Virus record (IMG/VR): IMGVR_UViG_3300040781_000109
Location: 1 to 64,000 of that record
From: a virus
Reading direction: 5' to 3' (one strand)
DNA length: 64,000 nt
Shown here: piece by piece, positions 5,279 through 63,229 of the stretch
Position numbering within the stretch: the stretch's first letter is position 1
Layout: each line of letters starts with the position of its first letter
The notes under the pieces: generated by a model
Told to the model about the DNA's origin: nothing
The model's database searches: none
Seen by the model: the letters and a program-made list of their open reading frames with translations, nothing else
Translations under genes and position numbers: made by a program

Positions 5279-6100
5279 TTATCTTAATAAACCTAATAGC
5301 ATTTGTGGCATTGAGTTTGTTATAGAAAGCATCTGCGTTTGGATCTGCATTTTAATTTGCAGTTCCGCAAGCTCTGCTGATAACTTCGGAATATCAGCAT
5401 CTTCTATTCTAGATACAGCAGATTCGATATTGATTGAAGTATTTTCAGCTAGTTTCTGTAGTGACTCTAAACCTGACTGTTGTGAGCCAATGGTTGATTG
5501 TGAAACAGCAACCGTACCTACTGCTAAATCAAGTGCTGTCATTGCCGCTTCCGCACCAGCTACAGTATTAAGATTTAATGTTGCCGCATCAGCGCCAAGT
5601 GTAGCACCATCTGACGCTGACGCAGTTAGTGTAAACTTATTGCCAGAGTTTATGCCAGACTGTATCTCGACATCGGCAGCCGCCGCTCCTGTTAAGTTTT
5701 GTCCAAACAGTGTTGCTTCGTCTGCTACGTTATCAAGCTGTGCTTGTAACTCAACAAATTGTGCTTGAACTGCGCTACGCTGATCTGCTGTTAGTAAGCC
5801 AGATGCCGCTTGTGTAGCTAGTCCTTTAAGTTCTGTAAGGATACCCTGTTGGCTGCTCAATGCTGTAGACGCAACGTTTAACAGTGATAAGCCACCGTCT
5901 ATGTTTTTTGTCACTACATCGTAAGACATCTTTTGGGTTTTCATTGTAGATACAATGCCTACACCGGCAGGATCATCTTTAGCAGATAAGATTCTTTTAC
6001 CAGATGATAACATCTGAGTAACGTCGTCTAAACGGTTTTGTGTTTGGTTAAAGTTATTTGCTCCGAAAAGCGATGGGATGTTTGTGTTTAGTGATAACAT
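5279..6100 (-). CDS. Flagellin
   Basis: 273 residues with both conserved flagellin ends. The N-terminal D0/D1 region has LNTNIPSLFG, L-S-S-G-K-R-I-L-S-A-K-D-D-P-A-G and later Q-G-I-L-T-E-L-K-G-L-A-T-Q-A. The C-terminal D1/D0 region has SRIEDADIPKLSAELAELQ and ends MLLGLLR like bacterial flagellins. The surface-exposed middle domain is short. The gene is visibly richer in G and C than its neighbours, suggesting recent capture from a bacterium. GGAG precedes ATG and a TATAAATA late promoter lies 72 nt up. Bacterial flagellin builds the filament; what a phage gains is unknown (decoy, host motility change or virion part). Confidence 0.93.
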   Translation of the reverse strand: MLSLNTNIPSLFGANNFNQTQNRLDDVTQMLSSGKRILSAKDDPAGVGIVSTMKTQKMSYDVVTKNIDGGLSLLNVASTALSSQQGILTELKGLATQAASGLLTADQRSAVQAQFVELQAQLDNVADEATLFGQNLTGAAAADVEIQSGINSGNKFTLTASASDGATLGADAATLNLNTVAGAEAAMTALDLAVGTVAVSQSTIGSQQSGLESLQKLAENTSINIESAVSRIEDADIPKLSAELAELQIKMQIQTQMLSITNSMPQMLLGLLR

Positions 6101-6171
6101 TGTGTTTCTCCGTTGATTTATTTAACTCTTATTACAGAGTGAAGCTTAGGAGAGTTAGCCTCTAACAGTTT

Positions 6172-6179
6172 TATTTATA
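6172..6179 (-). promoter_or_regulatory. T4-type late promoter (TATAAATA)
   Basis: Exact TATAAATA, 72 nt before the flagellin start, further than the 24-42 nt seen at most other sites here. It overlaps the stop region of the upstream gene. Confidence 0.65.
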
Positions 6180-6489
6180 CAACTACTTCTTTTAAGACTC
6201 GTATGAATCCAATTTCATCGTCAATATTTCTGAGTTCGTTTGTGTTCATAAGACAATAAGTTAAACTTTCGTTAACCTTAATCAAACCAGTAACCAGAAC
6301 TTTTTCTTCAGACGTATCATATACCATTATGATATATTCGATTAATTCTTTTGCCGCAAGTGCAGACTGCAACCTATCACCTTTCTTAATAGACGTATTC
6401 TTATACGTTAACATGTGTGATAGGATAGACTCAACTAAACGTGTTGGACTATTCGTAGTCTGGCTATATGGTTTTGTTCTCATCATCAT
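6175..6489 (-). CDS. Hypothetical protein
   Basis: 104 residues. The middle and C-terminal part (KVLVTGLIKVNESLTYCLM, then two acidic residues and GFIRVLKEVVV) reads like a small alpha/beta protein. No family recognised. It starts 4 nt after the stop of the interrupted gene at 6493-6777 and may be translated with it. Confidence 0.55.
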   Translation of the reverse strand: MMMRTKPYSQTTNSPTRLVESILSHMLTYKNTSIKKGDRLQSALAAKELIEYIIMVYDTSEEKVLVTGLIKVNESLTYCLMNTNELRNIDDEIGFIRVLKEVVV

Positions 6490-6778: not shown

Positions 6779-7336
6779 TTATTTGCCAAATAATACTTTA
6801 GTTTCTAATTTGCCACCAAGTTCTCGTTGATACATATATGGGACAAGTTCAGGGAATTTCTTAACGTGGCTATCACTAGCAGGAACATCAAATAATTCCT
6901 TTTTAAGTTTCTTAGCTGCTTCTTCTTTTGTCCAAGCATTCTTAACTAAGAAATCAATACCAAGAGTCTTTGCAGAAAAACCTAAAGCAGACTTGGACAT
7001 TTCAAAATATGCTCTGCTAAAGTCTTCTTTTTTGATCATCATAAGACCTTGTTTACCTTCAGGCGTACCGTTAGTAAAAGATGCAACACCTTTACGACCA
7101 TCTTTATCTTTGTACATAGAACCTGCTACTATTTCGCCATTACGACGTACGAGTTTCCACATTGGGATGTTTTTAACCATATCTTCTTTTGATCTAAACC
7201 CGCTTCCTTTTATCCCACCGATAGACTCGTATGATTTTTGTAGCATATCCCATACTACATCTGCGTATTGTTCTTTATCATTTGGTTTAAAAAGGTTCAC
7301 AAACCTTTCGGTCATATATTCTTTAAAGTTTTGCAA
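6779..7336 (-). CDS. Hypothetical protein, possibly packaged in the head
   Basis: About 186 residues from a TTG at 7336 preceded by GGAG, which gives a start QNFKEYMTE like the tags of internal head proteins. An ATG at 7315 avoids overlap with the upstream gene but has a weak ribosome site, and a TTG at 7357 is also possible. The core (KLVRRNGEIVAGSMYKDKDG, then GKQGLMMIKKEDF) could be a beta-sheet domain of the acetyltransferase type, but key residues are not certain. It ends 2 nt before the start of the interrupted gene. Confidence 0.6.
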   Translation of the reverse strand: MQNFKEYMTERFVNLFKPNDKEQYADVVWDMLQKSYESIGGIKGSGFRSKEDMVKNIPMWKLVRRNGEIVAGSMYKDKDGRKGVASFTNGTPEGKQGLMMIKKEDFSRAYFEMSKSALGFSAKTLGIDFLVKNAWTKEEAAKKLKKELFDVPASDSHVKKFPELVPYMYQRELGGKLETKVLFGK

Positions 7337-7562
7337 TTTCGTCGGCTCCGTAAGCAAATGTTTTCCCGTTTACACTAACATAGTATATAAATGCATCACC
7401 AAACATTATTCTATTAAACGCAGTTTCTTTTGTTATTTTTTCTACTGTACCTGTTTTACCATTATGAGTATCAATGGCTGATCTGACAACTACCTTGTCA
7501 CCTATATTAAATTGCTGTTTTGTAGACTTAGCTTCATTTAAGATTTGTTTAAAAGATTTCAT
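7323..7562 (-). CDS. Small KOW/SH3-like protein with head-targeting tag
   Basis: 79 residues. MKSFKQILNEAKS matches the capsid-targeting sequence of T4 internal proteins, including an L-N-E/A site for the prohead protease. The rest (FNIGDKVVVRSA, then HNGKTGTVEKI) is a small KOW/SH3-like barrel. TATAAATA lies 40 nt upstream, so late expression fits packaging into the prohead. Packaging is inferred. Confidence 0.7.
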   Translation of the reverse strand: MKSFKQILNEAKSTKQQFNIGDKVVVRSAIDTHNGKTGTVEKITKETAFNRIMFGDAFIYYVSVNGKTFAYGADEIAKL

Positions 7563-7572
7563 GTTTTCCTAT

Positions 7573-8061
7573 TTAACCAATTATTATGTAGTTTCTGCAA
7601 GTATTTATAAAATCGCGTAATTTATCCTGGAACTCAATCCGGTGGTGACCACCTGGGACTTCGAGAATACTTGTAGTACCTTCAAAGTAGTTAACTATTT
7701 CAACAGCATCAAGTCTTTCGTCACCCATTTCAACATAAAGGAATCGGTGTCCTCTATTTACTGCATCTTCTTCAGTGTTTGGTGGATAGTAGTAATTTTC
7801 GACAATGGTCGGTGCAATTGCTGGATTAACCAATACAGTTGGAATGTTATATTTGTTACCCATCCGTAATGCCCAGTACCCACCTAGGCTATGACCAACG
7901 AGCATTTCAAAATCACCTTCTTCGATAATTTTGCTATAGAATGTTTCAACTTCTTTGCAACTGTGAATATCATAGTCAATAGTGTGACATACCATTTCTG
8001 GCAATAAGCTTGCCTTAGGGGTTTGAGCACTACTACCATGACCGTGTAAATATAAAATCAT
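7573..8061 (-). CDS. YqiA-like alpha/beta-hydrolase
   Basis: 162 residues. ILYLHGHGSS at the start forms the oxyanion region, GHSLGG (nucleophile S58) is the elbow, GDERLD supplies an acid and GGHHRIE the histidine, in the order of the UPF0227/YqiA esterase family. Substrate unknown. It has its own early promoter and is the only hydrolase among small unknown genes. Confidence 0.82.
   Translation of the reverse strand: MILYLHGHGSSAQTPKASLLPEMVCHTIDYDIHSCKEVETFYSKIIEEGDFEMLVGHSLGGYWALRMGNKYNIPTVLVNPAIAPTIVENYYYPPNTEEDAVNRGHRFLYVEMGDERLDAVEIVNYFEGTTSILEVPGGHHRIEFQDKLRDFINTCRNYIIIG
7602..7609 (-). promoter_or_regulatory. T4-type late promoter (TATAAATA)
   Basis: Exact match inside the 3' end of the hydrolase gene and 40 nt before the 7323-7562 gene. 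Confidence 0.6.
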
Positions 8062-10088: not shown

Positions 10089-11243
10089 TTAATCGAGGAT
10101 GTTTATGATCGTTTGGGTAATATTTTTAAAGTCTTCTACTGTCTTTCCACGTGTAGTTTCAGCTGCAGTACCTATTCTTATTCCAGAAGTTTCGACAAAA
10201 CTACGTGTATCATTTGGAATACTATTCTTATTTACGGTGATTCCGTTTTCTTCCAATAAGTCCGCTGCTTGTCTTCCACTATATTTGTGGTCAGATAAAT
10301 TTAATAGAACAAGGTGACTATCAGTTCCATCAGTTTGAACTTTATATCCATTTTCTATAAATGATTTAGACATTGCCTTTGCATTATCGACTACAGATTG
10401 AGCGTATTCTTTAAAAGAAGGTTCAAGAGCTTCAATAAAGCATTGCGCCTTTGCAGCAACAATATGCATCAATGGTCCACCTTGAGTCCCTGGGAATATT
10501 GCAGAATTGATTCTTTTAGTGAATGCGTCTTCATTCCATAATATGATACCTCCACGAGGTCCTCTAAGGGTCTTATGTGTTGTTGATGTAACAACATCCG
10601 CATACGGTAATGGATTGTCGTATACACCGCCTGCTATAAGCCCAGCATAATGAGCCATATCAACCAATAATAATGCACCAACTGAGTTGGCAATATCTCT
10701 AAACTTTTTCCAATCAATTTGTCTCGGATAAGCAGACCCACCAGCTATAATCATTTTGGGTTCATATTCAGTTGCAAGATATTGTATGCGATCGTAATCC
10801 AATAAACCATTTTCATCAACGCCATAAGAAAATGCGTTAAACCAATCACCTGAAATATTCACACTAGATCCGTGACTCAAATGACCACCTGCAGCAAGAT
10901 CCATACCAAGTATAACGTCACTTGGTTTTAGGAATGCTTTAAACACCGCAAGGTTTGCATTTGCTCCACTATGCGGTTGAACATTTGCATACTTGCATTT
11001 AAATAACCTAGTTACAGAGTCTATTGCTAATTGTTCAATTTCGTCAGCATGTTCGCATCCATTATAATATCGTTTTCCAGGATATCCTTCGGCATATTTG
11101 TTTGTAAATTCAGAACCTGCTAATACCATAACAGATTCACTTGCAAAGTTTTCACTTGCAATTAATTCTAATGTGTTATCTTGTCTTTCGCATTCTTTCA
11201 TTAGAATATTTGCTATTCTCAAATCCAATTTGTTCTCCTTCAT
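10089..11243 (-). CDS. glyA: Serine hydroxymethyltransferase
   Basis: 384 residues, a little shorter than the roughly 417 of E. coli GlyA. It converts serine plus tetrahydrofolate to glycine plus methylene-tetrahydrofolate, using pyridoxal phosphate. Visible motifs are LIASENFAS, EGYPGKRYYNG, HSGANANLAV, VDMAHYAGLI and STTHKTLRGPRGG, with K224 holding the cofactor. The window also encodes ThyA and DHFR, so the phage carries all three steps of the thymidylate cycle. The start overlaps the upstream gene by 4 nt, and a strong terminator follows. Confidence 0.97.
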   Translation of the reverse strand: MKENKLDLRIANILMKECERQDNTLELIASENFASESVMVLAGSEFTNKYAEGYPGKRYYNGCEHADEIEQLAIDSVTRLFKCKYANVQPHSGANANLAVFKAFLKPSDVILGMDLAAGGHLSHGSSVNISGDWFNAFSYGVDENGLLDYDRIQYLATEYEPKMIIAGGSAYPRQIDWKKFRDIANSVGALLLVDMAHYAGLIAGGVYDNPLPYADVVTSTTHKTLRGPRGGIILWNEDAFTKRINSAIFPGTQGGPLMHIVAAKAQCFIEALEPSFKEYAQSVVDNAKAMSKSFIENGYKVQTDGTDSHLVLLNLSDHKYSGRQAADLLEENGITVNKNSIPNDTRSFVETSGIRIGTAAETTRGKTVEDFKNITQTIINILD

Positions 11244-31657: not shown

Positions 31658-32161
31658 TTAAATTTTGCAAGCACCGTCTGGGCAATCATCGTCGCCCGTA
31701 TCTATTTCACCGGCACCATCAAATGTGTTGTTATAATATAGTTGCTTCCCACCATGTTTATAAAATGTAACAATGTCCTTTATTAGACGTGACATTGGAA
31801 CTTTACCATCTGGAAATTTTGCAGGATTGTAGCTCGTATTTACAGAAATACCCTGGTCAATCCATTTTTGCAATACTGCACAAATCTCTAAATAACCAGT
31901 AGGATCTTCCTGGTCCCATAGTAAATCATATTTATTCTTTAACTTATGATAGCCAGGGACAACTTGAGCCATGACACCATCTTTACTTTGTTTGTAACTT
32001 ATAAACCCCCTAGGTGGTTCAATTCCATTCGTGCTATTGGAAATTTGAGCAGACGTGTTATGACTGATGCACCCGTTTGATAGTGCATACTGTTCAGTAT
32101 CTGTCGATATGTCCCAGGTATGTTCCTTTGTGATATTTCTTTTGATTTTATTGATTTTCAT
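31658..32161 (-). CDS. nrdA: Intein-C fragment plus C-terminal NrdA
   Basis: 167 residues. Residues 1-35 are the C-terminal half of a split intein (TWDIST ... GCISHN). N35 is the splice asparagine and T36 the first extein residue. From T36 the sequence is the E. coli-like NrdA C-terminus (TSAQISNSTNGIEPPRG, then SGKVPM-like and LYYNNT). It ends DCPDGACKI, keeping the two cysteines that reduce the active site. It must be joined to the 33339-34328 product to function. Confidence 0.93.
   Translation of the reverse strand: MKINKIKRNITKEHTWDISTDTEQYALSNGCISHNTSAQISNSTNGIEPPRGFISYKQSKDGVMAQVVPGYHKLKNKYDLLWDQEDPTGYLEICAVLQKWIDQGISVNTSYNPAKFPDGKVPMSRLIKDIVTFYKHGGKQLYYNNTFDGAGEIDTGDDDCPDGACKI
32057..32161 (-). 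mobile_element. Split intein 2, C-terminal half
   Basis: 35 residues ending N-T junction, with a beta-strand and HN ending but lacking the usual H-N-F in the F block (EQYALSNG instead). Partner N-half at 33342-33674. Confidence 0.88.
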
Positions 32162-33338: not shown

Positions 33339-34328
33339 TTAGATTACAATCACATCGTCAGTTTCAAGTAAATTGTCTACAGTAACCCAAATTTCTTTAC
33401 CTTCTCTTATAACCTTCAATTGATGGTTACCTGTGAATTTATAAACATTACCATCTTCAAACTCAATCTCAGTTAATTCTTGGTAACCATTATAATAGCA
33501 TTCATACGCAGTAGACCCGTCGCCAAGTTTAACAGGTTTTCTAAATTCAAATCTTTGTCCTGGTATACCAGTTTCGTGCACTTTGTTGATATCTATATTA
33601 GAATTTAATGTAATAAATTCACCTAGCATGACACCACCATCTTCAGTTAAAATTTTATTATATAAAGATTGGCATTCAGCAGGCATAAGAGCCATCAAAG
33701 TACTGTTACGAATACCAGTTTCTTTTAATTGATTGCGTAACCCTTCCCAATCCATTCTTTCAATACGTTGAGTTAAATCGTCAACATCTTTCTTATATGT
33801 ATCAATTGGAAGAATACCATGACCGTATTTCGTTTCATGATTAAGAGGAATTTTACCTTTTTCGGCTGCAAGGTTTGCACTTGTCTTAATCAGATAATAA
33901 GACCATGCTTCCGCGTATTCATCAATTGTCGCTAATGCCTCAGAATCGTATTTAAGCCCGCGCTTTGCAAGAAAATAAGCAAGGTTGATTATACCAACCC
34001 CAAGTGGACGTCTATTCATTGTTGAATTTTCAGCAGCAAGAACAGGATACTTTTGATAATCCAGCAATTCGTCTAAAGCGCGAACAGCTAAGTCACAGTA
34101 CTTTTCAAATTCGGAAGGATCATTTATTAAACCCCAATTTATTGCTGAAAGCGTACATAAACTGATTTCGGAGTCGGGATCATTAATATCGCTTAATGGT
34201 TTAGTTGGCAAGTCAACTTCAGCACAGTTGTGTACTAATATATTATTTGCAAAGAAGTTATGTGTACCTTCAACTGTTATGTCAAATACATCTTCTCTGC
34301 GTGTTAATTTCGTAATTTTTATTCCCAT
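33339..34328 (-). CDS. nrdA: Intein-C1, middle NrdA, intein-N2
   Basis: 329 residues from ATG at 34328 (an in-frame ATG 21 nt earlier is less likely). Three parts, numbered from the earlier ATG: 8-41 intein-C of the first split intein (FDITVEGTHNFFANNILVHN), 42-225 NrdA, 226-336 intein-N of the second split intein. The extein starts at C42 (NLC-AE in the spliced protein, the thiyl-radical cysteine), contains the redox cysteine of ISLCTLSAIN and ends NSTLMALMPAE. Confidence 0.94.
   Translation of the reverse strand: MGIKITKLTRREDVFDITVEGTHNFFANNILVHNCAEVDLPTKPLSDINDPDSEISLCTLSAINWGLINDPSEFEKYCDLAVRALDELLDYQKYPVLAAENSTMNRRPLGVGIINLAYFLAKRGLKYDSEALATIDEYAEAWSYYLIKTSANLAAEKGKIPLNHETKYGHGILPIDTYKKDVDDLTQRIERMDWEGLRNQLKETGIRNSTLMALMPAECQSLYNKILTEDGGVMLGEFITLNSNIDINKVHETGIPGQRFEFRKPVKLGDGSTAYECYYNGYQELTEIEFEDGNVYKFTGNHQLKVIREGKEIWVTVDNLLETDDVIVI
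33342..33674 (-). mobile_element. Split intein 2, N-terminal half
   Basis: 111 residues starting at C226 (CQSLYNKIL) right after MPAE, with block B FTGNHQLKV. It ends at the TAG/TAA stop with no endonuclease domain. Confidence 0.9.
34227..34328 (-). mobile_element. Split intein 1, C-terminal half
   Basis: 34 residues with typical FDITVEGTHNF and NNILVHN blocks F and G, followed by C as extein +1. Confidence 0.93.
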
Positions 34329-35038
34329 GTAATTCGTCCTAGTTTCCACTCATTGTTTGGTGGAGTTAAAAATTGTTTATTAGTTTTAGTTTGATCATTA
34401 TAGTACCAATGTTTACCAGTACCAGCAGTAGACAAACTTTCCTTGTGTTCTTTTGTTTTAACATATCTTATTTCTTTAGGGTCAATATTATATTTTTCAC
34501 AATAAGATTCTTTTAGAGTTTTTCCACCAAATCGATTTTTTGAAAAGGACTTTGGTATTGAATGATTTTCATTACCCCAATCCATAAACTTTTTAATACC
34601 CATTTGATGACCGTATTCTAAATAATATTCTCTAGCAAGTTCAAGTATTTTATCATCGCTTATACCAGACCACCTACTATTATTTTCCATTGTACTCGTT
34701 TCAGATATTTTCTGAACCCAAGAATCGTATTTTTCATCAGGAACAACCCAACCACCATCTCCACCCTTTGTCATATTGTAACCTTCTTTAAAAGAATTAC
34801 ATTCTTCGATATAGCGAATTTCGTTAGTCTTTGCTTCTTCCCTTGTAAGATATTCACCAATTATTTTAGATTCAAAAACACCCAAACCATATTTGCGTAT
34901 TGCTTTATAAAAATGATTATCCATTCCGCCCATTGCATTTGTATAATGTTTGTGTAATCTTTCGCTAATAGTTTTTGACGTATATCCCACGTATTTTTTA
35001 CCGTTAATAGAATTAGTATGTTCGTATACAATAAACAT
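34319..35038 (-). CDS. GIY-YIG homing endonuclease inside nrdA (intein 1)
   Basis: 239 residues. N-terminal FIVYEHTNSINGKKYVGYTS (the GIY-YIG strands), then arginine in S-E-R-L-H-K-H and N-E-I-R-Y-I-E with the catalytic glutamate. The C-terminus would bind DNA. It lies between the halves of split intein 1 and overlaps the next piece by 10 nt. It has its own late promoter inside a hairpin. Confidence 0.88.
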   Translation of the reverse strand: MFIVYEHTNSINGKKYVGYTSKTISERLHKHYTNAMGGMDNHFYKAIRKYGLGVFESKIIGEYLTREEAKTNEIRYIEECNSFKEGYNMTKGGDGGWVVPDEKYDSWVQKISETSTMENNSRWSGISDDKILELAREYYLEYGHQMGIKKFMDWGNENHSIPKSFSKNRFGGKTLKESYCEKYNIDPKEIRYVKTKEHKESLSTAGTGKHWYYNDQTKTNKQFLTPPNNEWKLGRITWE

Positions 35039-35120: not shown

Positions 35121-36752
35121 TTATTGTAACAAAAGTTCATCAGTCTCAACTAATTTACCTGCTTCAACATAACCACGATTTTTTGTGTATACTAAATGGC
35201 AAGGTGTACAAGTAATTTTATAACCACTCGCCTCATCTTCAATTTCAAGCAATTCACGATTTTGTCCAGTCATTTTACCATCGGTAACTGACTTATAAAC
35301 ATAAGTGTCACTGTCAATATCGTATGAACTAATCTTAACGTATTTTAGTCCTTTAACATATTCAATAACTTCTGTAATAGGAATTCCCCACATCGGAACA
35401 TCATCTACCATTATATCACACTTTGTGTCAGATGTCAAACAAAGGTTACTCATGCGAATTGGTGCAAGGTTAGGCAAAAAAGAACCATGGTCATTCGCAT
35501 GGTCAACGTTTTGCAAATAGATGCGGCCAGTGTCTTTACGTTCTGATATGTACTGAACAAATACATCCATTGCTTTCATTGTCTTTTTATCAATTGATTT
35601 ATCTTTTTCATACTTAACATAAAGCTTTGCAAATAACTCTTGGTCGGCATAAAACGCGTCATATAGGTCAGGAACATCATTAGGACAGAATAATGTAATA
35701 TCACCACCTGATAATAAACGTTCATACATTAGTTTATTGAATTGAAAACCATAATCCATTTGACGAACTCGACTTTCATCAGTACCTTTGTTATTCTTTA
35801 ATACGACAAGGTTTTCAAATTCTTTATGCCATATTGGGAAATACGTAGTTGCTGCGCCACCACGAACGCCACCCTGACTGCAACTCTTAACTGCCGATTG
35901 AAAATATTTTAAGAATGGTATTTGTCCAGTATGTATCGTTGAACCGTCGCCAATACTTGAACCAATCGCGCGAATGCGACCTGCTCCTATGCCAATACCT
36001 GCTTTCTTTGAAATATATTTAACGATAGCTGACGCAGTTGCATTAATTGAATCAAGACTATCACCGGATTCAATTAATACACAAGAACTAAACTGACGAA
36101 TAGATGTACGAACGCCGGCCATGATAGGTGTAGGTAAAGATATAAAAAACTGCGATGTTGCATCATAGAAATCTTTAACATATCGTATTCTTGTTTCTCG
36201 CGGGTATTCTGAAAACAATGTTGCCGCAACCATCATATAAAGAACCTGTGGTGTCTCATATGTAGTTTCAGTTTTGCGATTCTGTACTAAATATTTACCA
36301 CGCATTTGCTCCATTGCAACATAAGTAAATTCTGCATCACGATCATGTTTAATATAAGAATCTAACTTTTCTATTTCTTCTTGAGTATATTTTTCTAATA
36401 TCTGGTCATCATATACCCCAATCTGAACATTGAAATCTATAATCTGTGATAAAGACCACGGTTCATACTGGCCGTATACCTCTTTACGTAGTTTATAATT
36501 AATTAACCTTGCAGCAAGATATTGATAGTTTGGAGTACTTTCTAATATTAATTCAGCTGCGCTTTTTATCAATACTTCATGGATATCGTATGCTGGTATC
36601 CCATCATATAATTGTAGATTTGCTCTCAGTTCTACTTCTGATATAGAAACACCAGTAAGACCTTCGGCAGCCCATTCAAGTACTTTATGCACTTTTTCAA
36701 TATCAAAAGGCTCTTGATGCCCTGCCCGTTTCGTTACTTTTATTGTACTCAT
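35121..36752 (-). CDS. nrdA: N-terminal NrdA plus intein-N1
   Basis: 543 residues. 1-437 are NrdA: ATP-cone region (1-90), F-S-S-C-V-L-I-E-S-G-D-S-L with redox C224, G-I-G-I-G-A-G-R-I-R and T-G-R-I-Y-L-Q-N-V. 438-543 are intein-N (C438 LTSDTKC, then TCTPCHLVYT block B). The break falls exactly at the thiyl-radical cysteine that E. coli numbers C439, which is supplied by the next piece. Joined to the other two pieces the protein would have 753 residues (E. coli NrdA has 761). Confidence 0.95.
   Translation of the reverse strand: MSTIKVTKRAGHQEPFDIEKVHKVLEWAAEGLTGVSISEVELRANLQLYDGIPAYDIHEVLIKSAAELILESTPNYQYLAARLINYKLRKEVYGQYEPWSLSQIIDFNVQIGVYDDQILEKYTQEEIEKLDSYIKHDRDAEFTYVAMEQMRGKYLVQNRKTETTYETPQVLYMMVAATLFSEYPRETRIRYVKDFYDATSQFFISLPTPIMAGVRTSIRQFSSCVLIESGDSLDSINATASAIVKYISKKAGIGIGAGRIRAIGSSIGDGSTIHTGQIPFLKYFQSAVKSCSQGGVRGGAATTYFPIWHKEFENLVVLKNNKGTDESRVRQMDYGFQFNKLMYERLLSGGDITLFCPNDVPDLYDAFYADQELFAKLYVKYEKDKSIDKKTMKAMDVFVQYISERKDTGRIYLQNVDHANDHGSFLPNLAPIRMSNLCLTSDTKCDIMVDDVPMWGIPITEVIEYVKGLKYVKISSYDIDSDTYVYKSVTDGKMTGQNRELLEIEDEASGYKITCTPCHLVYTKNRGYVEAGKLVETDELLLQ
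35124..35441 (-). mobile_element. Split intein 1, N-terminal half
   Basis: 106 residues from C438 to the stop, with T-x-x-H block B (TPCH). No endonuclease fused. Confidence 0.93.
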
Positions 36753-42628: not shown

Positions 42629-42662
42629 ATCCGAAGAAGATTAAACATCGTCTTCTTCGGAT
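42629..42662 (-). terminator. Hairpin over the adhesin stop codon
   Basis: Perfect 12-bp stem (42629-42640 with 42651-42662), 10-nt loop holding the stop codon. No T run follows, so this is a 3'-protecting hairpin or weak terminator. Confidence 0.6.
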
Positions 42663-45600
42663 TGGCCTAGTGTATATGATATGATCGCGTGAATTGACCC
42701 ATTCGCACTACTTCTTATTTCAAGCAAATCTCCAGATTTGAAAAATTGTCCGTTCATTGGAATTGGTATAGTATCAAAACCTGGAATGGCCAATCCAGAT
42801 ACGAATCCGTATCTTGTATCTTCTGCTAACCTGTAAACTTCAACATCAACGGTTTCGGTATTAGCTGTTATATTGCAACACATAAGTGGACTTATAACTT
42901 CACCAACGCCTGTTTCTACTGTTGTTGAACCACCAAATATTAACTCAGGAACTTCGTAGTTTGGAACTGATATTAATACATCCCAATCTTCACCAACAAC
43001 TATACTTGTCGCTACTGGCTTGGCGTCTGGAGCCTGTGATGTAACAATTGTTTGAACCGGTGATTCAAGAACTCTAACAGCTCTAAGCACAGATGGAAAC
43101 GCAGCGTTTCCAGATCTATCAGTTACGTCAAACTGTAAAATATAAACACCCGGTGTATTCATATCTACAAATCCAGTCACGACAACTCTATCTGATATAT
43201 CACCATCAACTTCATCAATCGCGGTTGCTACGAATTGGGGTTCATCTTCTTTAGCAAAAACTTCAATTATATTTGTGGTCGGAGTCACAGTAAGGGTTGG
43301 CCTAGTAACATCGAGGACATTTACTATTCTTATGTACTGTGCGCTATTTCCAGCGACATCTGTTACACTATATAATACTTCATACGTGCCTACAATATCT
43401 GTATTAATATCGTTAAGACCAGATTCTTGTATTCTGTCACTTATTATATTATCAACATTATCAAACGCACCCAATTCAAACGGTGGAATATTTCCAAATT
43501 GTTCAACGTTAACAGGGTTTTGCCCTGATATGACAAAAAATTCAGGTTGTGTTATATCGTTAACAATTAACGTTAAAGTAATAGGGTCCGATTGATTACC
43601 GTCAGAATCTGAAACTGTAAAAGTTATTGGATATGAATTTGGCGTATTTACATCAACTAAGGATAATCCATCAACTACAATATCATTGGTTATGTCGCCA
43701 TCTTCTTCATCAAAAGCTTGTGCATTGAAATCAGGTATTGGATCACCTTCGTCAATGTTTACTACATCACCAAACTCAGGTGGTAAAGTTATAATTGGTA
43801 CAGATCTATCTCTTACTATAACAGTTCTTACAACCTCATCGGCAGCGTTATTTGCACTGTCCGAAACATTAAATGTTAATATATATGTGCCAGGAACTGT
43901 GGTATTAACCGTATCACCGCCAACTATAACGTTTGCACTGATATCGCCATCAACGTCGTCAAACGCGGTTGGTATAAATGGTACGAATGTTGATCCTTCG
44001 CGAATTATCGTAGTTTCTTTACCATTCACTTCAAGTGTAGGTTTAGTTACATCACGTATTATAACTGTTCGTATTGTAACACCAACATTTCCTGCTGAAT
44101 CTGTTACACTATAAATTACTTGATATTCACCTACTTGATTTGTGTCAATTTCGTTAAATCCACTAACACTTACATTGGCAGTGATATTACCATCAATATT
44201 GTCAAAAGCCTCATAACCAAATTCTGCTAAAGTATCTCCTTCATTTATAACAGTCGGTTCGTTACCAAAAACAGTGATAGTTGGCGCCTGCGCGTCAAGA
44301 ACTATAACTTCTCTAGAAATTTCTTCAGAAAAATTACCAGAAGAATCTGCCACTATAAAGGTTACAGTATATGTACCAGCCACGTTTACATTTAAATTTC
44401 CACCTATAATAACTTCAGATGTGGCAATTGCCCCATCATAGTCATCATTTGCAATTATAATCCATTCTGGTGGAGACTCAAACTGTCTTATAGTCTGTGT
44501 TGTTTGTGGTAGTATAGTTAAATTAGGGCCTATCGTATCTATTACTTGTATTGTCCTAATTTGGGTTGGAGCTTGATTACCAGCTAAATCGCTTACATCA
44601 AATCTTACCTCATAAGATCCAATAACATTCATATTAACATCGTCGTACCCAGTGACTTGTATTCTGCTAGTTATTTCAGCATCATCATCTATATCATCTG
44701 TCGCGAGTGCGTTTATAATAGGTTTAGGTGAACCAAACTCTCTTACAATAACTGGGTTATTTTCAAATTCTACAATTAATTCAGGCGGTGTTATATCTGT
44801 AATAACAACAGTTCTAATGACTTCTTGAGCTTGATTACCAACTATATCACTTACATTATATCTTATTATATAAGAACCAACGACATTAGTATTAACTAAT
44901 TCTTCGCCAGTAATTACAACTCTACTAGTTATTTCAGCATCATCATCAAAATCGTCAGTTGCGGAGAACGTGAAAGGTGTAAACGACCCAAATTGACCAA
45001 TAAAGGTGATTGGGTCACCTGATACTGTAATCACTGGTGGTGTTCTATCAAACGCGTCTTCTGGTGCTGAATTTACAGACCAAAATGTTGATGGTGAAAG
45101 TATATTAGCTGATTCTACTTCTATGTATTCAATAGGTTTTGAAATACCAGACAATATCTCTGCGTCAAATACTTCTCCAGCAAAATCATCTTCACTCCCT
45201 GGATTACTACCGTCCTGAAATCCTCTAGATCCCAAATAATAATCAGTGTTTCCTATGCCGCCAACCGACATAAGTCTTGAATCTGTCTGATTTATATCTA
45301 ACACACCATTCACGTATGTTTTGTAAGCAGAGCCATCGTATACGAAATCAACTTTATGAGTGACATTATCCGTAAGAGATATTGTACCAGTCTCTTGTAT
45401 TATTATACTACTGCCAGACCACACAATAATACTAATAAAATTTGTATCAGTTAAGAACCATTGCCAAAATCTATCTGTAATTGCCACTGAATTGTCAGAA
45501 CTCAATATTTGTCTGTTTAATAGAGACGAATTTGGTCTTATAGTTGCAGAAAAAGTAAACTGTGATGTATTTAAATTATCGTTTGATCCAAGATTTATGA

Positions 45601-48600
45601 CACCGCTATCCCCAGATTCTGGTATGAATAACTGGCCTTGGTTTGGACCTAATCTTGGTAATGGTAAATTGAAAGTTGCATCATTTGTTCCTGTGCTACT
45701 ACTAGCAATTACGCCTGAAGTTTCGTCTAAATTGAATCTTTGGTATCTTTCCTGCCAAACTTCGTATTTGCCGTATTGTGCATTAGGTAAAGGTTGTACA
45801 CTACCTTCTCTTCCATAGAATAGCCATATATTTCTATCAATTGTTGAATATGTTGGAAATCTTACCCAAATCTCAGCGGTGCGATTAATTGTGTTAAATT
45901 TAACTATATCTATCGGCAGTCTTCTTGTGCCATCTCTATTTTCGCATATACGTAAATCGCCACCGCCTTCGCTCTGAAATAAGTACTGCTGTTGCTCAAA
46001 TCCTGGGAATGCAGTTAGTGCAATATTAGCATTTCCGGCAACATCAACTAAAGTTTGATTAGTTGATACGGCTGGATCATAGTCTTTTAATAGATTATTT
46101 AATAGTCCGCCGCTTACTGTGTATACATTAAGCCTGTATAAATCTGCGTCAGAAATACTATAAGTAAGTGAACCATTAGACGTGCTTAAAGCATTAAGGT
46201 GCCAGGCGTTAATAAGATTCCATTGAGGGTCAAGAACATTACCAATATTAGCGCTGTTTAGAACTAAAATATTGTTTAAATATAACTCATAACTTGTTTG
46301 TGTATCAAATGAAAGGCGAAAATCTACTGTTATTTTCTCACCAGCTGTAAAAAGTCCAGTTGATGACGTTATATCATATGAAGTACCATCTAAAAGAGAT
46401 GTAACTCGAAAACTACCGTTACTGTTTATACTTAATTGTATAAATGTGTAGACAGATGAAGCTTGACTGGTCGTAAATACCAAATCTGACGTATTAATCT
46501 TAAGATCAAATATATATGCAACATTAGTTGATCTAGTTTCTTTCTCTATACGTATACCAGATCCTGCACCAAACTGTAGATAATTTTCACCAGATTCAGT
46601 AATATCCCAAAATTCTGATGGTAAATTATCTTCGGTAATTAATACAGGCAATCCTTCTACTGAGTTGCTAGGTGCTATGCCTTCTAATTCAAATCTTCTT
46701 AAGAATTCGCTTAATTGTATTCCAGTTAGCGAAGTTGATTCTGGCGTAGATGAAACCCAAAAACTAGCTGGATCCGATTGGTTTTTATATTCCTCTAATA
46801 TTTGAACGTCACTTTTAGTGTAATTCCTTACATCCAAATCACTTATAGATCCAATTAAATCTCTACTTAGCGCAGTGTTATTTCCTATAGAAAGATTTTC
46901 ACTTAGCGACGTAAATGGGCTACTTAAACCAAATCCAACCAAATTACCATTTACGTATATTGAATATGTGCCATCATTGCTATGGGTAAATGCATAATGA
47001 TTGTATTCTTGTTTGACTATTAAACCGTTAAAGTCTGAAGATACTACTGTTGTACCGGTACCAATTGAGCTGCTTATACCATCTGGTAAAAATTCAGCAA
47101 AAATGTTATTAACGTTTGCGCCATCTGTAAAAATATATCCTGTCGAGTTTGAATCTTGTGTTCGAACCCATAACGATATTGAGAAATTTCTTGATGAAAC
47201 TACTTCTGACGGGTACGTTACTACGCCGTTTTCTATATATGCGCCTAAGGTAAACTTGCCATCGGTTACAGTTACGTTACCTGTAACTGATGGTGCATAC
47301 GTCGCAGTTGAATCTATTTCTTCTAATATAGGGCCAGATCTTAAAACAGAATCTTGCCATACATTATTCTCACCATATGTATCCCAAGGTTTAAACCCAG
47401 TTATACCAATATTACCGTAAAAAATCCAAAATGATTTCCCATTTGATAGTTCATCAAATCTTGTCCAAATTGTCGCCTTTCTGGTAACTGTATTAAATTC
47501 GGCTATTTCTATTGGTAACTGCCCTGTACCGTCGCGATTTAAACATAATCTTATATCACTACCAGTGTTAGTGCTCCTTAAGCTACTAGCAGAATAAGCT
47601 GGCTGTGGTAATGGGAAACTTGTATTACTTACACTATCTATTAAAGCTACATTATTAGCATCGAAGTCTCCAGCACTTATTCTCGATACCAAAACATCAT
47701 CATAGTATATCTCGCAATAATAAAAATTAAAATTTCTTGACCTGCCACTAAAATCACCGCCTAAACTAAGAGTGACTGGGGCACCAAAAACAGAATTTGT
47801 ATAGTCTTCTACCGCAAATATACCGCCTTCGTTTCTGGTGAGTTCTGTTAGTGTTATATCTGCTGCATTTGGTTCTCTCACGACGGAAATTTCATATACG
47901 TCAGATGAAGTAATAGTAGAATTCTCAAGGATATTATTGTGTTCAGCAAAACGTATATATGGTGCTGAATCTTGTATAGTACAAGATGTACCCCACTCAA
48001 AACCTTTTGAAGTATCGCCTACAGTTATCAATCTTGCGTTAGAAAAAACACCAGGATAATCGAATACCGGTTCATCAAATCCTATTTTATATTTAACTTC
48101 TACCTTTTGATTCGCGAGTGGACTTGATAAACCTGTGTCTATAAATATATTAGCACTAGTATTATTAGGATTAACTTTAAGATATACATCAGACTGTTCT
48201 GCTAAGTCAAAGATCTCTCCTGGCAAATCTTTTTCAGTTACGACAGCCGTAAAACTATTAATAGATGATGACGGTGATCTTTTTGTTATTTCGGCTCGTT
48301 TTGGCCAGTTTAATACATCAAGATCAAACGCGCCGAGTACCCACTTACTATCATCGCTTGGAATTGAATTTAGTATTAATATATTACTATTGCCAGTTGA
48401 GTCAAAAAGTATATCACCCGTCGCTGCAGATAACGATGGTTGCCAATCATTCAATAATACGCCATTTTTAGTAATTGAAAACCCGTATAAATCGCACAAG
48501 GCGCTTCCGTTAGATGTATTACCAAGTCTTAATAAAGAATTAACACTATCTGTTTGGAATGGTATGTTAGACACAACTATATTGCCATCAACTCTTATAG

Positions 48601-48913
48601 TAATTAATGAGTTACTTGCTGATATTTCAATTGTTCTTCTAACTGATAAATCTACAGTTGTATTTAAATCATATGTAGTATTGGTGTAACCAATTCTGAC
48701 AGAATTGATGTTTGTGACGGATAAAGAAGAAGAAATGAACTGCAATCCGCTAATAGAAGTGTTTGAAGCACATATTACTGGGTAAGTGCTACCATTCTCG
48801 TAGAATAAGCCATCTAATACAATATTAAAAGTGTCGCTATTTATAGCACTTAAAGTAGTGGATGCTATATCTAATACTGAATTACCACCTCTTAACTTTA
48901 AATAATATTCCAT
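42641..48913 (-). CDS. Large adhesin with LamG, DUF2341 and Ig-like repeats
   Basis: 2090 residues. The N-terminal two thirds alternate concanavalin/LamG-like sandwiches (about 1-200, 550-700, 1080-1280) with two DUF2341-type modules (L-P-I-E-I-A-E-F-N-T and L-P-I-D-I-V-K-F-N-T, each followed by W-I/L-F-Y-G). Residues 1289-1949 are eight Ig-like repeats of about 83 residues. The last 141 residues have no repeats. This is a cell-surface-binding type of protein, here probably the tail fibre or long receptor-binding protein. It is read in one operon with 48919-49548. Confidence 0.85.
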   Translation of the reverse strand: MEYYLKLRGGNSVLDIASTTLSAINSDTFNIVLDGLFYENGSTYPVICASNTSISGLQFISSSLSVTNINSVRIGYTNTTYDLNTTVDLSVRRTIEISASNSLITIRVDGNIVVSNIPFQTDSVNSLLRLGNTSNGSALCDLYGFSITKNGVLLNDWQPSLSAATGDILFDSTGNSNILILNSIPSDDSKWVLGAFDLDVLNWPKRAEITKRSPSSSINSFTAVVTEKDLPGEIFDLAEQSDVYLKVNPNNTSANIFIDTGLSSPLANQKVEVKYKIGFDEPVFDYPGVFSNARLITVGDTSKGFEWGTSCTIQDSAPYIRFAEHNNILENSTITSSDVYEISVVREPNAADITLTELTRNEGGIFAVEDYTNSVFGAPVTLSLGGDFSGRSRNFNFYYCEIYYDDVLVSRISAGDFDANNVALIDSVSNTSFPLPQPAYSASSLRSTNTGSDIRLCLNRDGTGQLPIEIAEFNTVTRKATIWTRFDELSNGKSFWIFYGNIGITGFKPWDTYGENNVWQDSVLRSGPILEEIDSTATYAPSVTGNVTVTDGKFTLGAYIENGVVTYPSEVVSSRNFSISLWVRTQDSNSTGYIFTDGANVNNIFAEFLPDGISSSIGTGTTVVSSDFNGLIVKQEYNHYAFTHSNDGTYSIYVNGNLVGFGLSSPFTSLSENLSIGNNTALSRDLIGSISDLDVRNYTKSDVQILEEYKNQSDPASFWVSSTPESTSLTGIQLSEFLRRFELEGIAPSNSVEGLPVLITEDNLPSEFWDITESGENYLQFGAGSGIRIEKETRSTNVAYIFDLKINTSDLVFTTSQASSVYTFIQLSINSNGSFRVTSLLDGTSYDITSSTGLFTAGEKITVDFRLSFDTQTSYELYLNNILVLNSANIGNVLDPQWNLINAWHLNALSTSNGSLTYSISDADLYRLNVYTVSGGLLNNLLKDYDPAVSTNQTLVDVAGNANIALTAFPGFEQQQYLFQSEGGGDLRICENRDGTRRLPIDIVKFNTINRTAEIWVRFPTYSTIDRNIWLFYGREGSVQPLPNAQYGKYEVWQERYQRFNLDETSGVIASSSTGTNDATFNLPLPRLGPNQGQLFIPESGDSGVINLGSNDNLNTSQFTFSATIRPNSSLLNRQILSSDNSVAITDRFWQWFLTDTNFISIIVWSGSSIIIQETGTISLTDNVTHKVDFVYDGSAYKTYVNGVLDINQTDSRLMSVGGIGNTDYYLGSRGFQDGSNPGSEDDFAGEVFDAEILSGISKPIEYIEVESANILSPSTFWSVNSAPEDAFDRTPPVITVSGDPITFIGQFGSFTPFTFSATDDFDDDAEITSRVVITGEELVNTNVVGSYIIRYNVSDIVGNQAQEVIRTVVITDITPPELIVEFENNPVIVREFGSPKPIINALATDDIDDDAEITSRIQVTGYDDVNMNVIGSYEVRFDVSDLAGNQAPTQIRTIQVIDTIGPNLTILPQTTQTIRQFESPPEWIIIANDDYDGAIATSEVIIGGNLNVNVAGTYTVTFIVADSSGNFSEEISREVIVLDAQAPTITVFGNEPTVINEGDTLAEFGYEAFDNIDGNITANVSVSGFNEIDTNQVGEYQVIYSVTDSAGNVGVTIRTVIIRDVTKPTLEVNGKETTIIREGSTFVPFIPTAFDDVDGDISANVIVGGDTVNTTVPGTYILTFNVSDSANNAADEVVRTVIVRDRSVPIITLPPEFGDVVNIDEGDPIPDFNAQAFDEEDGDITNDIVVDGLSLVDVNTPNSYPITFTVSDSDGNQSDPITLTLIVNDITQPEFFVISGQNPVNVEQFGNIPPFELGAFDNVDNIISDRIQESGLNDINTDIVGTYEVLYSVTDVAGNSAQYIRIVNVLDVTRPTLTVTPTTNIIEVFAKEDEPQFVATAIDEVDGDISDRVVVTGFVDMNTPGVYILQFDVTDRSGNAAFPSVLRAVRVLESPVQTIVTSQAPDAKPVATSIVVGEDWDVLISVPNYEVPELIFGGSTTVETGVGEVISPLMCCNITANTETVDVEVYRLAEDTRYGFVSGLAIPGFDTIPIPMNGQFFKSGDLLEIRSSANGSIHAIISYTLGQSEEDDV
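43067..45049 (-). repeat. Eight Ig-like repeats (DUF5011/HYR type)
   Basis: Each unit begins D-x-x-x-P, has an acidic patch such as D-D-x-D-G-D-I and ends with V-x-D-x-x-G-N-x-A and R-T-V-x-V. All eight are close in length but diverged in DNA. Confidence 0.88.
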
Positions 48914-55921: not shown

Positions 55922-56584
55922 CTATACACCATCCGAATATTTTTTCAACCATGCAAACCCAGTTGATCCCCAATATTGTTCTGCGTATACCTTACCTGGG
56001 CCATCATATCGTTTTGATCCTTTTGCATACCATTGAGGTATTAGTGTATAAGAAGGCCATCTTGTCAATTTATTATCAATGTCAGGTATTTTCTTCCACA
56101 ATTCAGATAAGAAATGGTTTCCTGTGAATAGATACGGATGTGATGTATTTAGTCGGTTTGCGGGTAATTTATTTAGAATTGAAATAATTATTCTTAGTAT
56201 TTCATTATCTTTATTTGCAGCAAGGATTGGTGACGTGTACCCAGGTTTTGCTTTTTCATTTTCAAACACTGTGTATGCGTGATTAGGTGGACTTGTAAAT
56301 AACTCGTCAACTGGTTCCAAACAAATAGAATCAGCTGATGGCCAAAATCCACCACGTTCATTAATGAGCTCGTAACGAATAACATCGTGAGCACCTGCAT
56401 AACAACCTGCGTTATAATACTTATCAACTAAATGCTGATTAATCCAAGTTCGTTCTTTTAACATTTTATCTGTAAAAATGTTATATTCCCAATCAGGGTG
56501 TTTATCTTTCCACGTATTCATCCATTTGGTTGGCGCAGGTTTTGGGCCAATCCAAATATGAGTTATCTTTTTCTCTATATTCAT
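55922..56584 (-). CDS. GT32-like glycosyltransferase with changed DxD
   Basis: 220 residues. KITHIWIGPKPAP, D-V-I-R-Y-E-L-I-N-E-R-G-G-F-W followed by PSADSICLEP. In the family the last segment carries a DxD; here it is A-D-S, so the metal site differs. The rest (GYTSPILAANKD, FLSELWKKIP) fits a sugar-transferring enzyme. The GT25 gene follows 2 nt later. Late promoter 24 nt upstream. Confidence 0.72.
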   Translation of the reverse strand: MNIEKKITHIWIGPKPAPTKWMNTWKDKHPDWEYNIFTDKMLKERTWINQHLVDKYYNAGCYAGAHDVIRYELINERGGFWPSADSICLEPVDELFTSPPNHAYTVFENEKAKPGYTSPILAANKDNEILRIIISILNKLPANRLNTSHPYLFTGNHFLSELWKKIPDIDNKLTRWPSYTLIPQWYAKGSKRYDGPGKVYAEQYWGSTGFAWLKKYSDGV

Positions 56585-61293: not shown

Positions 61294-62718
61294 AAGACCG
61301 TCGGTTTTAAACTGTCCTGTTTTTTTACCACCCATTCTTGAACCAAATGCACCTTTATCAAAAGCAGGACCGTCATCTTTTGGTTGTTTGTTTCCACCAT
61401 CCATCATATTTGTTTGGGCAGATTCTTCGAGATTATAAATTTTCATTTTTGCTCTATCAATTCCTACTAGAAATCTTCGATAATGTGCTAAGTCACCCCA
61501 ACGATTTTTCAATTGTTTAATCATAAGCTGCCCACGATCGTCAAGGTCTTCAGACGTAATCAAACCTAATATACAATCGGCGGTATGAGTAATGCCCATT
61601 GACTCAGACGTATTCGTCAAATCTACGTCGCTGTTTCCATAACCATCTCTATTGAATTGAGATGATGTAACAACTGCGCAATTAAACTCCATTGCAAGGC
61701 CACGGATTTCTTCGGCAATTGACTTAACTAACGTATATGAATTTGCTGCAGCTGCACCACGAACTCGAGCAGACGAACATATGTTCAAATAATCAACAAA
61801 TACTATATCTGGTGTAAAGTTTTTCTTCATTTTTAGTTCGTTTAATAGATGGCGAAAATGACCTGAGTGGGCAGAACCTGTAGGATATTCTTTAATAACT
61901 AACTTACCAGTCGTCTTACTCTTATATCTGTTAATACGCTTTTCATATACATCGCGTGGAATTTCTTTTACTTGGTCAATTGTAATATCCATCATATTTG
62001 CATCAATACGTTCAGCAATACGTTCTTCAGCCATCTCCATTGTAATATACAGAACATTTTTTCCGTACATCATATGATTCGCTGCCATGTGGCATTTAAG
62101 TAAACTTTTTCCTCCGCCTGTGGTAGCCAATAGGACTGTCATTGATTTGCGAGGTAGACCACCCTTGGTGATTGTATTAAGCAAGTCAATATCAAAAGGA
62201 ATGCGCTCTTCTTTCTTATGATAGAAATCATATCGGCTTTCAAATTCTTCAAGATAATCATGCCCAACACTGCTATCAAAGCTAATTCCTAAAGAATCTT
62301 GTAGCATCTTGGGTATTGAACCTTTACCTTCTGTACTCCCATCGTCGGTAGATTCAGAATTAAGAATGGTAATTGCTTTTCTTATTGAATTATATAAGTC
62401 TTTATCTTGGCAGAACTTTTCAGTTTCGTTAAATAAAAATTGAGTGTTTGTATCTTTATCTACCTTCAACTGACTTACAGCATCCATGACTTCAGAATAC
62501 AATGATTCATTTAAGTCAGTTCTTTTCTCCAAAGATAGTTTTAAAGCCTCCAATGAAGGAGGCGATTTGTACTGTATTACATAGTCCGCGTATGTATCAA
62601 ACACTTTGCGGTGGGAATTGTTTTCAAAATACTCATCTTTAATAAATGGGAATACCTTTGCATAATATTCCTTATTATAGACAAGATTAGATAATATCGT
62701 CGTTTCCATCATCTTCAA
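61288..62718 (-). CDS. 41: Replicative DNA helicase (T4 gp41-like)
   Basis: 476 residues. N-terminal primase-binding domain (1-150), then the RecA-like ATPase: Walker A ATTGGGKS (about 198-205), VFVDYLNI, T-S-S-Q-F-N-R-D and a C-terminal basic-glycine tail. It unwinds DNA at the fork and works with gp61. The order uvsX then gp41 matches T4. No intein here. Its start overlaps the uvsX stop by about 32 nt. Confidence 0.94.
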   Translation of the reverse strand: MKMMETTILSNLVYNKEYYAKVFPFIKDEYFENNSHRKVFDTYADYVIQYKSPPSLEALKLSLEKRTDLNESLYSEVMDAVSQLKVDKDTNTQFLFNETEKFCQDKDLYNSIRKAITILNSESTDDGSTEGKGSIPKMLQDSLGISFDSSVGHDYLEEFESRYDFYHKKEERIPFDIDLLNTITKGGLPRKSMTVLLATTGGGKSLLKCHMAANHMMYGKNVLYITMEMAEERIAERIDANMMDITIDQVKEIPRDVYEKRINRYKSKTTGKLVIKEYPTGSAHSGHFRHLLNELKMKKNFTPDIVFVDYLNICSSARVRGAAAANSYTLVKSIAEEIRGLAMEFNCAVVTSSQFNRDGYGNSDVDLTNTSESMGITHTADCILGLITSEDLDDRGQLMIKQLKNRWGDLAHYRRFLVGIDRAKMKIYNLEESAQTNMMDGGNKQPKDDGPAFDKGAFGSRMGGKKTGQFKTDGLL

Positions 62719-63229
62719 TTTTTCCAGGTATTGTCAATTTATATTTACGCTCAATGAATTTATTAAAGTCTGCATCTTTAACAAGACCTTCAAAAAATTC
62801 TTCATCAGCACCTAAATCTTTGGCACGACGTTTAGGCTCAATTAATTCACCGGTTTCGCGGTTCACGACATTATACCAACCCATTGTTGAACCTTTTGCT
62901 ATATGACCAGATTCTATTGCTAAATCGAATAATGCAGACCATTTTTGAATACCTGAATCATATAACACAGTGAAAGGTAATTTTGCTTTTTCACGAACGA
63001 ATCTTGACTTTTCAATATTAATAGTAAATTTCCAACCTGCCAAATCAGTACCTTCTTTTTCCTGGGCTTTACTGATAATGAAGATTTGATTTGCGGAATA
63101 GTAAATTCCAGTGTTATGCGTTACCACTCCGTTTTTAAGTACGTAATGCTGCTCATCATAATTTTCAGTAGCAATTGATAAATCATATACCGGGTTTCTG
63201 CCAACCGGTTTTACACTAACTATTTTCAT
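62687..63229 (-). CDS. uvsX: Intein-C fragment plus C-terminal UvsX
   Basis: 180 residues. Residues 1-39 are a split-intein C-half (VYDLSI ... NGVVTHN). T40 starts the extein, T-G-I-Y-Y-S-A-N-Q-I-F-I-I, the T4 UvsX region after the P-loop part. The C-terminal 140 residues contain N-I-E-K-S-R and G-W-Y-N-V-V. The N-terminal half of UvsX must lie upstream, beyond this window. It has its own early promoter (63274-63302). Confidence 0.9.
   Translation of the reverse strand: MKIVSVKPVGRNPVYDLSIATENYDEQHYVLKNGVVTHNTGIYYSANQIFIISKAQEKEGTDLAGWKFTINIEKSRFVREKAKLPFTVLYDSGIQKWSALFDLAIESGHIAKGSTMGWYNVVNRETGELIEPKRRAKDLGADEEFFEGLVKDADFNKFIERKYKLTIPGKIEDDGNDDII
63113..63229 (-). mobile_element. Split intein 3, C-terminal half (UvsX)
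   Basis: 39 residues ending H-N, with block F VYDLSIATENYDEQHYVL. Extein +1 is T. N-half not in the window. Confidence 0.87.

Follow-up and report, generated by a model that had tools for sequence, protein, structure and literature searches.

Why would a phage of the lytic type carry a complete flagellin gene? This question is raised by the window, the whole 64,000-nt stretch analysed here, which corresponds to bases 1-64000 of a partial IMG/VR contig of 79,632 bp; the remainder of the contig was read as L002. Nearly all genes of the window lie on the minus strand. The features discussed below are collected in Table 1.

A complete minimal flagellin gene in a T4-type phage

The phage to which the window belongs was identified from its conserved genes. 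PHROG matches on the contig include UvsX, gp32, a gp59-like helicase loader, a gp41-like helicase, a tail tube protein, PhoH and NrdA. The topoisomerase large subunit is 51% identical to that of the Vibrio phage nt-1/ValKK3 group, and the gp41-like (DnaB-like) helicase is about 51% identical to those of Stenotrophomonas phage DLP6, Sinorhizobium phage phiM12 and cyanophages. Judged from these sequences, the contig is that of a T4-type phage of the lytic type.

The flagellin open reading frame is unbroken from ATG to TAA. Residues 5-136 of its product match Flagellin_N (PF00669) with an E-value of 1e-24 (87.6 bits for a cut-off of 26.6), and residues 188-272 match Flagellin_C (PF00700) with an E-value of 3.6e-14 (53.3 bits for a cut-off of 23). 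The first-pass annotation had read this locus as a complete flagellin gene in a phage, and with both ends above the Pfam cut-offs, an intact frame and T4-type genes on the same contig this reading is borne out. An AF2 model calculated from a six-sequence alignment (pLDDT 74.5) contains the elements ND0, ND1a, ND1b, a single beta-hairpin, CD1 and CD0, while domains D2 and D3 are missing. The 20 best Foldseek matches of this model are all flagellar filaments (E-values of about 1e-12, around 3e-12), namely the short-flagellin filaments of Roseburia, Caulobacter and Shewanella. Filament formation is the role predicted for this protein from its sequence and model.

The gene had also been described as richer in G and C than its surroundings. 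Its G+C content is indeed 0.419, compared with 0.338 for the window, but its GC3 of 0.300 falls within the range of the neighbouring genes (0.20-0.31). The excess thus reflects amino-acid content and not a recent foreign origin, and we dismissed recent capture as judged from high G+C.

Table 1. Coordinates of the features of the window, of its contig and of related or compared phage contigs (positions refer to the window unless a contig is named)
Feature	Position	Strand	Basis
Flagellin gene, 273 aa, D0-D1 only	5279..6100	minus	Pfam, AF2/Foldseek, phage-only clade
GGAG ribosome-binding site of flagellin gene	6108..6111	minus	sequence
TATAAATA, T4-type late-promoter-like motif	6172..6179	minus	sequence; overlaps stop codon of upstream gene
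FliS-like flagellin chaperone gene (predicted), 104 aa, four-helix bundle	6175..6489	minus	AF2, Foldseek, synteny
Neighbour of unknown function	6779..7357	minus	40.5% identity over 111 aa to L008:6903-7493
UPF0227 (YqiA-like) esterase	7573..8061	minus	Pfam 1.6e-14; 31.6% over 98 aa to L008:7516-8103
Loci on unrelated phage contigs with their own flagellin and FlaG or FliD	L016:9995-11253; L169:3460-4833; L170:2755-3681		
NrdA region, broken into pieces	31658-32161; 33339-34349; 34319-35038; 35121-36752		PHROG
Further intein-like/fractured gene coordinates	62687-63229; L002:1126-2034		
Serine hydroxymethyltransferase (GlyA)-like ORF	10089-11243		by eye from sequence
Probable tail fibre, 2090-aa ORF	42641-48913		size and position
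Glycosyltransferase-like ORF	55922-56584		Caps_synth 5e-6, Gly_transf_sug 1.1e-5
Heme oxygenase gene	L002:5486-6061 (contig 68485-69060)		Pfam 3.4e-18

A FliS-like gene precedes the flagellin gene

Directly 5' of the flagellin gene, with a gap of 74 nt, lies a small open reading frame, a homologue of which immediately precedes flagellin in all eight lineages of the family described below. The product matches no Pfam family. AF2 modelled it as a confident four-helix bundle (pLDDT 83, pTM 0.76). When this model was compared with 350,542 PDB chains using Foldseek, the best eight matches were all FliS. The first of them is 6gow, the B. subtilis FliS-flagellin complex, with a probability of 1.00 and a TM-score of 0.74 for an E-value of only 0.29; further matches to the FliS fold include 3iqc and 3k1i from H. 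pylori, 1orj and 6lea. E-values of 0.29 and above are weak, as is usual with small helical bundles, which match loosely. A search with Pfam FliS (PF02561) gave no match in any family member examined, and a sequence-profile comparison with FliS using hhalign returned a probability of 1.7%. Given these negative sequence tests, we use the label FliS-like and do not place the protein in PF02561. It resembles FliS in being a small helical bundle that matches FliS structures best and whose gene adjoins flagellin, and differs from it in lacking a Pfam FliS match. On the basis of its model, the protein looks like a flagellin export chaperone, and as such would bind the flagellin C-terminus.

The flagellins form a virus-only family

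Pattern scans that started from a single protein yielded no flagellin relatives in either viral or genome collections. Relatives were found by alignment-based scans of IMG/VR and are about 45-59% identical to the window flagellin. With the window included, the family comprises 12 contigs in 8 lineages (the window; L008; L009/L010; L011/L012; L096-098; L175; L178; L179). L008 is a 318-kb contig carrying a T4-type major head protein; L009/L010 measure 96 kb and L011/L012 94.5 kb. Several of the cassette arrangements recur in two or three separate metagenomes, which makes chimeric assembly less likely.

Six phage members that we compared are 49-59% identical to one another between lineages. In a joint alignment, identity between these six and the closest bacterial flagellins, drawn from a sample of about 770 Pseudomonadota genomes and a few other sequences, does not exceed 37%. 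The window protein shares with bacterial flagellins both conserved ends, the canonical D0-D1 fold and, at about 270 aa, the length of Caulobacter FljK or Shewanella FlaA; this low identity and its location in a phage genome set it apart. The first-pass annotation had suggested a phylogeny to find the donor. In an IQ-TREE reconstruction of 50 flagellins, the six phage sequences form a single clade (SH-aLRT 100) of their own on a long stem, so no bacterial donor emerged.

Other phage flagellins (L013, L016, L021-L024) are placed elsewhere in this tree, showing that flagellin was gained by phages more than once. The contigs L013, L016 and L022 carry a T4-type head protein. The flagellins of GenBank 'phage' records were dismissed as relatives because they are probable bacterial contamination, most of them being surrounded by flagellar operons; L004, L006 and L007 are bacterial flagellar operons deposited as phage, probably through contamination. 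In L005 (Bacillus phage EZ-2018a, CP027117), flagellin lies near a Rap-like TPR open reading frame in a deposited genome of 118 kb, and could be a real phage gene.

FlgK-like and FlaG-like partners

A FlgK-like gene is located directly 3' of flagellin in four lineages (L008, L011, L096-098 and L175). Its 340-aa product matches Flg_bb_rod, Flg_bbr_C and FlgK_D1, as well as FlgK in the PDB at 4e-14. In two further lineages a FlaG-like gene replaces it, the Pfam FlaG match being above cut-off in L179 (1.1e-5) and below it in L178 (0.009). A partner beyond the FliS-like gene is present in six of the eight lineages. Searches for a FlgK-like gene in the partial window contig and in L010 found none, and FliD was not detected in the window contig; no FlaG-like frame was seen among the frames neighbouring flagellin in the window and in L010. 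With neither FlgK nor FliD detected on the window contig, assembly would have to rely on host parts. A FliD match below cut-off in a coiled-coil frame of the L011 phage was discarded. The window and L008 also have in common the next two genes upstream of the cassette.

Filament genes also accompany unrelated phage flagellins. FlaG is the partner in the T4-type phage G014, which has a flagellin of its own; FliD is encoded alongside flagellin in G008 and G010. These sequences point to phages having acquired filament genes on separate occasions.

Selection and divergence of the cassette

The dN/dS ratio of flagellin is 0.20 (L096-L098), and the L096-L097 pair shows 11 synonymous and no replacement differences. 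Between close relatives, the ratio is 0.07-0.10 for the FlgK-like gene and 0.11 for the FliS-like gene. As judged from these substitution patterns, all three genes are under purifying selection. Between the L011 and L096 phages, ribonucleotide reductase is 80-85% identical, whereas flagellin is only 54% and the FlgK-like protein 31% identical. Divergence or exchange of the cassette is thus more rapid than that of the genes around it, which would be expected where genes must fit a changing host partner.

A late-promoter-like motif upstream of flagellin

The flagellin gene had been assigned to the late class from a TATAAATA motif, which lies 71 nt before its ATG and includes the stop codon (TAA) of the FliS-like gene. 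Of 113 genes of the window phage, 13 are preceded by TATAAATA at a distance of at most 130 nt; for the reverse complement of the motif, the figure is one gene. This shows that the motif is a genuine signal in this genome, even though its total count (20) is close to the 16.8 expected by chance. Most of the other sites lie 31-48 nt before the start codon, and the flagellin site is farther out; such a spacing is still possible, as head genes of the T4-type phage G014 carry the motif at 63-71 nt. Among the relatives checked, the motif is absent upstream of flagellin, save for a partial TATAAA at -15 in L010. The motif is thus present as claimed, but its overlap with the upstream stop codon, its unusual spacing and its lack of conservation make the late assignment no stronger than plausible. 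If functional, it would raise flagellin separately from its chaperone.

A predicted role in building host flagella

Our best explanation, which we consider probable, is that the cassette is a phage-borne set of flagellar-filament genes whose products build onto host flagella during infection. The recurrence of an intact flagellin with a FliS-like gene in at least eight uncultured lineages suggests that these phages rebuild or add to the flagella of their hosts. The scheme that we infer, from expression through chaperoning, export and assembly into host filaments to a benefit for the phage, would run as follows. In the infected cell, the phage would make a streamlined D0-D1 flagellin and a small FliS-like chaperone of its own; this chaperone would stop the flagellin from polymerising in the cytoplasm and hand it to the flagellar type III export gate of the host. 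The phage flagellin would pass the hook and polymerise under the host cap, giving a filament that is partly or wholly phage-made. In some relatives, the FlgK-like junction protein or FlaG would start or tune filaments of the phage type. The likeliest benefit is that a working filament would be kept or re-fitted after T4-type shut-off of host genes, allowing the doomed cell to swim on; the next most likely is that the refitted filament would be unusable by other flagellotropic phages. Besides the intact flagellin, its partners and their purifying selection, this explanation gains from the filament genes that accompany unrelated phage flagellins and from the behaviour of prophage FliCP (see below). 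Against it speak the window contig, on which neither FlgK nor FliD nor a Pfam FliS match was detected, and the dependence of the FliS-like label on a predicted fold. Competition with host filament growth, one of the functions proposed in the first-pass annotation, comes close to this explanation. According to a broader proposal, T4-type and jumbo phages of the lytic kind would possess a modular filament kit (chaperone, flagellin, and junction protein or FlaG), acquired several times independently, and would use it to rebuild the flagella of the cells that they infect; its probability seems to us evenly balanced.

The main rival, which we hold to be unlikely, is sabotage: the flagellin, the chaperone and the FlgK-like protein of the phage would jam or poison the export gate, the hook junction or the filament of the host, and so stop motility, save energy or block flagellotropic competitors. 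The FlgK-like proteins are short enough to fit such a role (340 aa, compared with 553-673 for the solved FlgK chains that they match), and the set of partners differs between phages. However, jamming would require neither intact polymerisation ends, nor a dedicated chaperone, nor the FlaG and FliD of relatives, and the genes of the cassette are kept by purifying selection.

Incorporation of flagellin into the virion, where it would form fibres or decorate the particle as a decoy or an adhesin, appears more doubtful still. The late-promoter-like motif would agree with it, as would the location of two unrelated phage flagellins (L013 and L016) near a T4-type major head gene, but this motif is missing in relatives. 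Moreover, flagellin is constantly accompanied by a protein with the predicted fold of FliS, an export chaperone, and variably by a FlgK-like or FlaG-like protein, a combination that argues for a role in flagellar assembly and not in virion decoration. Partners found in eight (FliS-like) and six (FlgK-like or FlaG-like) of the eight lineages have no obvious purpose in a virion, and we therefore do not favour the earlier suggestion of a virion decoration or of a decoy for receptors or antibodies.

Finally, a useless captured bacterial gene or a mis-assembled contig is very improbable: most GenBank 'phage' flagellin matches do resemble bacterial contamination, but here the conservation of the cassette already contradicts this explanation, the same cassette being found on contigs from different metagenomes, in a virus-only clade with a long stem, with dN/dS well below 1, GC3 as in neighbouring phage genes and T4-type genes on the same contigs.

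Comparison with known systems

Among the auxiliary genes of phages are some that keep a function of the host going, such as psbA of cyanophages. The cassette is similar in that a host-type protein is encoded by a lytic phage, and differs in concerning a motility organelle instead of metabolism.

A phage-encoded flagellin is known from the TldR-FliCP system of Enterobacter phage FRphi, a lambda-like prophage of the temperate type that encodes an RNA-guided repressor acting on the fliC of its host; the prophage FliCP assembles into host flagella and raises motility, and was termed by its authors the first known prophage-encoded flagellin (PMC13418256). Both systems encode a flagellin, and FliCP likewise diverges from that of the host. 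In contrast, FliCP has large variable outer domains and belongs to a temperate phage, whereas the window flagellin consists of D0-D1 only and belongs to a T4-type, lytic-like phage; the FliS-like and the FlgK-like or FlaG-like partners are features of the T4-type family described here. By inspection of the list of neighbouring open reading frames, no TnpB-like frame is apparent near the window flagellin. Our search of the open-access literature brought up the TldR work alone and no paper that describes flagellin in a T4-type phage or a jumbo phage, an absence that carries little weight. As far as this literature shows, the temperate TldR-FliCP prophages were the one earlier source of phage-encoded flagellin; the different type of phage, the minimal flagellin and the chaperone with junction partners are new.

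If our explanation is correct, virulent phages manipulate the motility organelle of their host by building parts of it, and swimming or flagellar identity would come under viral control during lytic infection. This makes testable the swimming of infected cells, the exclusion of flagellotropic rivals and the use of phage flagellin with foreign export machinery. The family also supplies natural minimal flagellins and chaperones.

Other genes of the window phage

Several further features of this phage were noted. Its NrdA gene is fragmented into pieces with intein-like ends, between which lies a GIY-YIG-type open reading frame. The break points of UvsX and of the gp41-like helicase also carry intein-like sequence, resembling genes fractured by split inteins. 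The probable tail-fibre frame has no PHROG match. The same phage also encodes GlyA-like and glycosyltransferase-like products, and a heme oxygenase.
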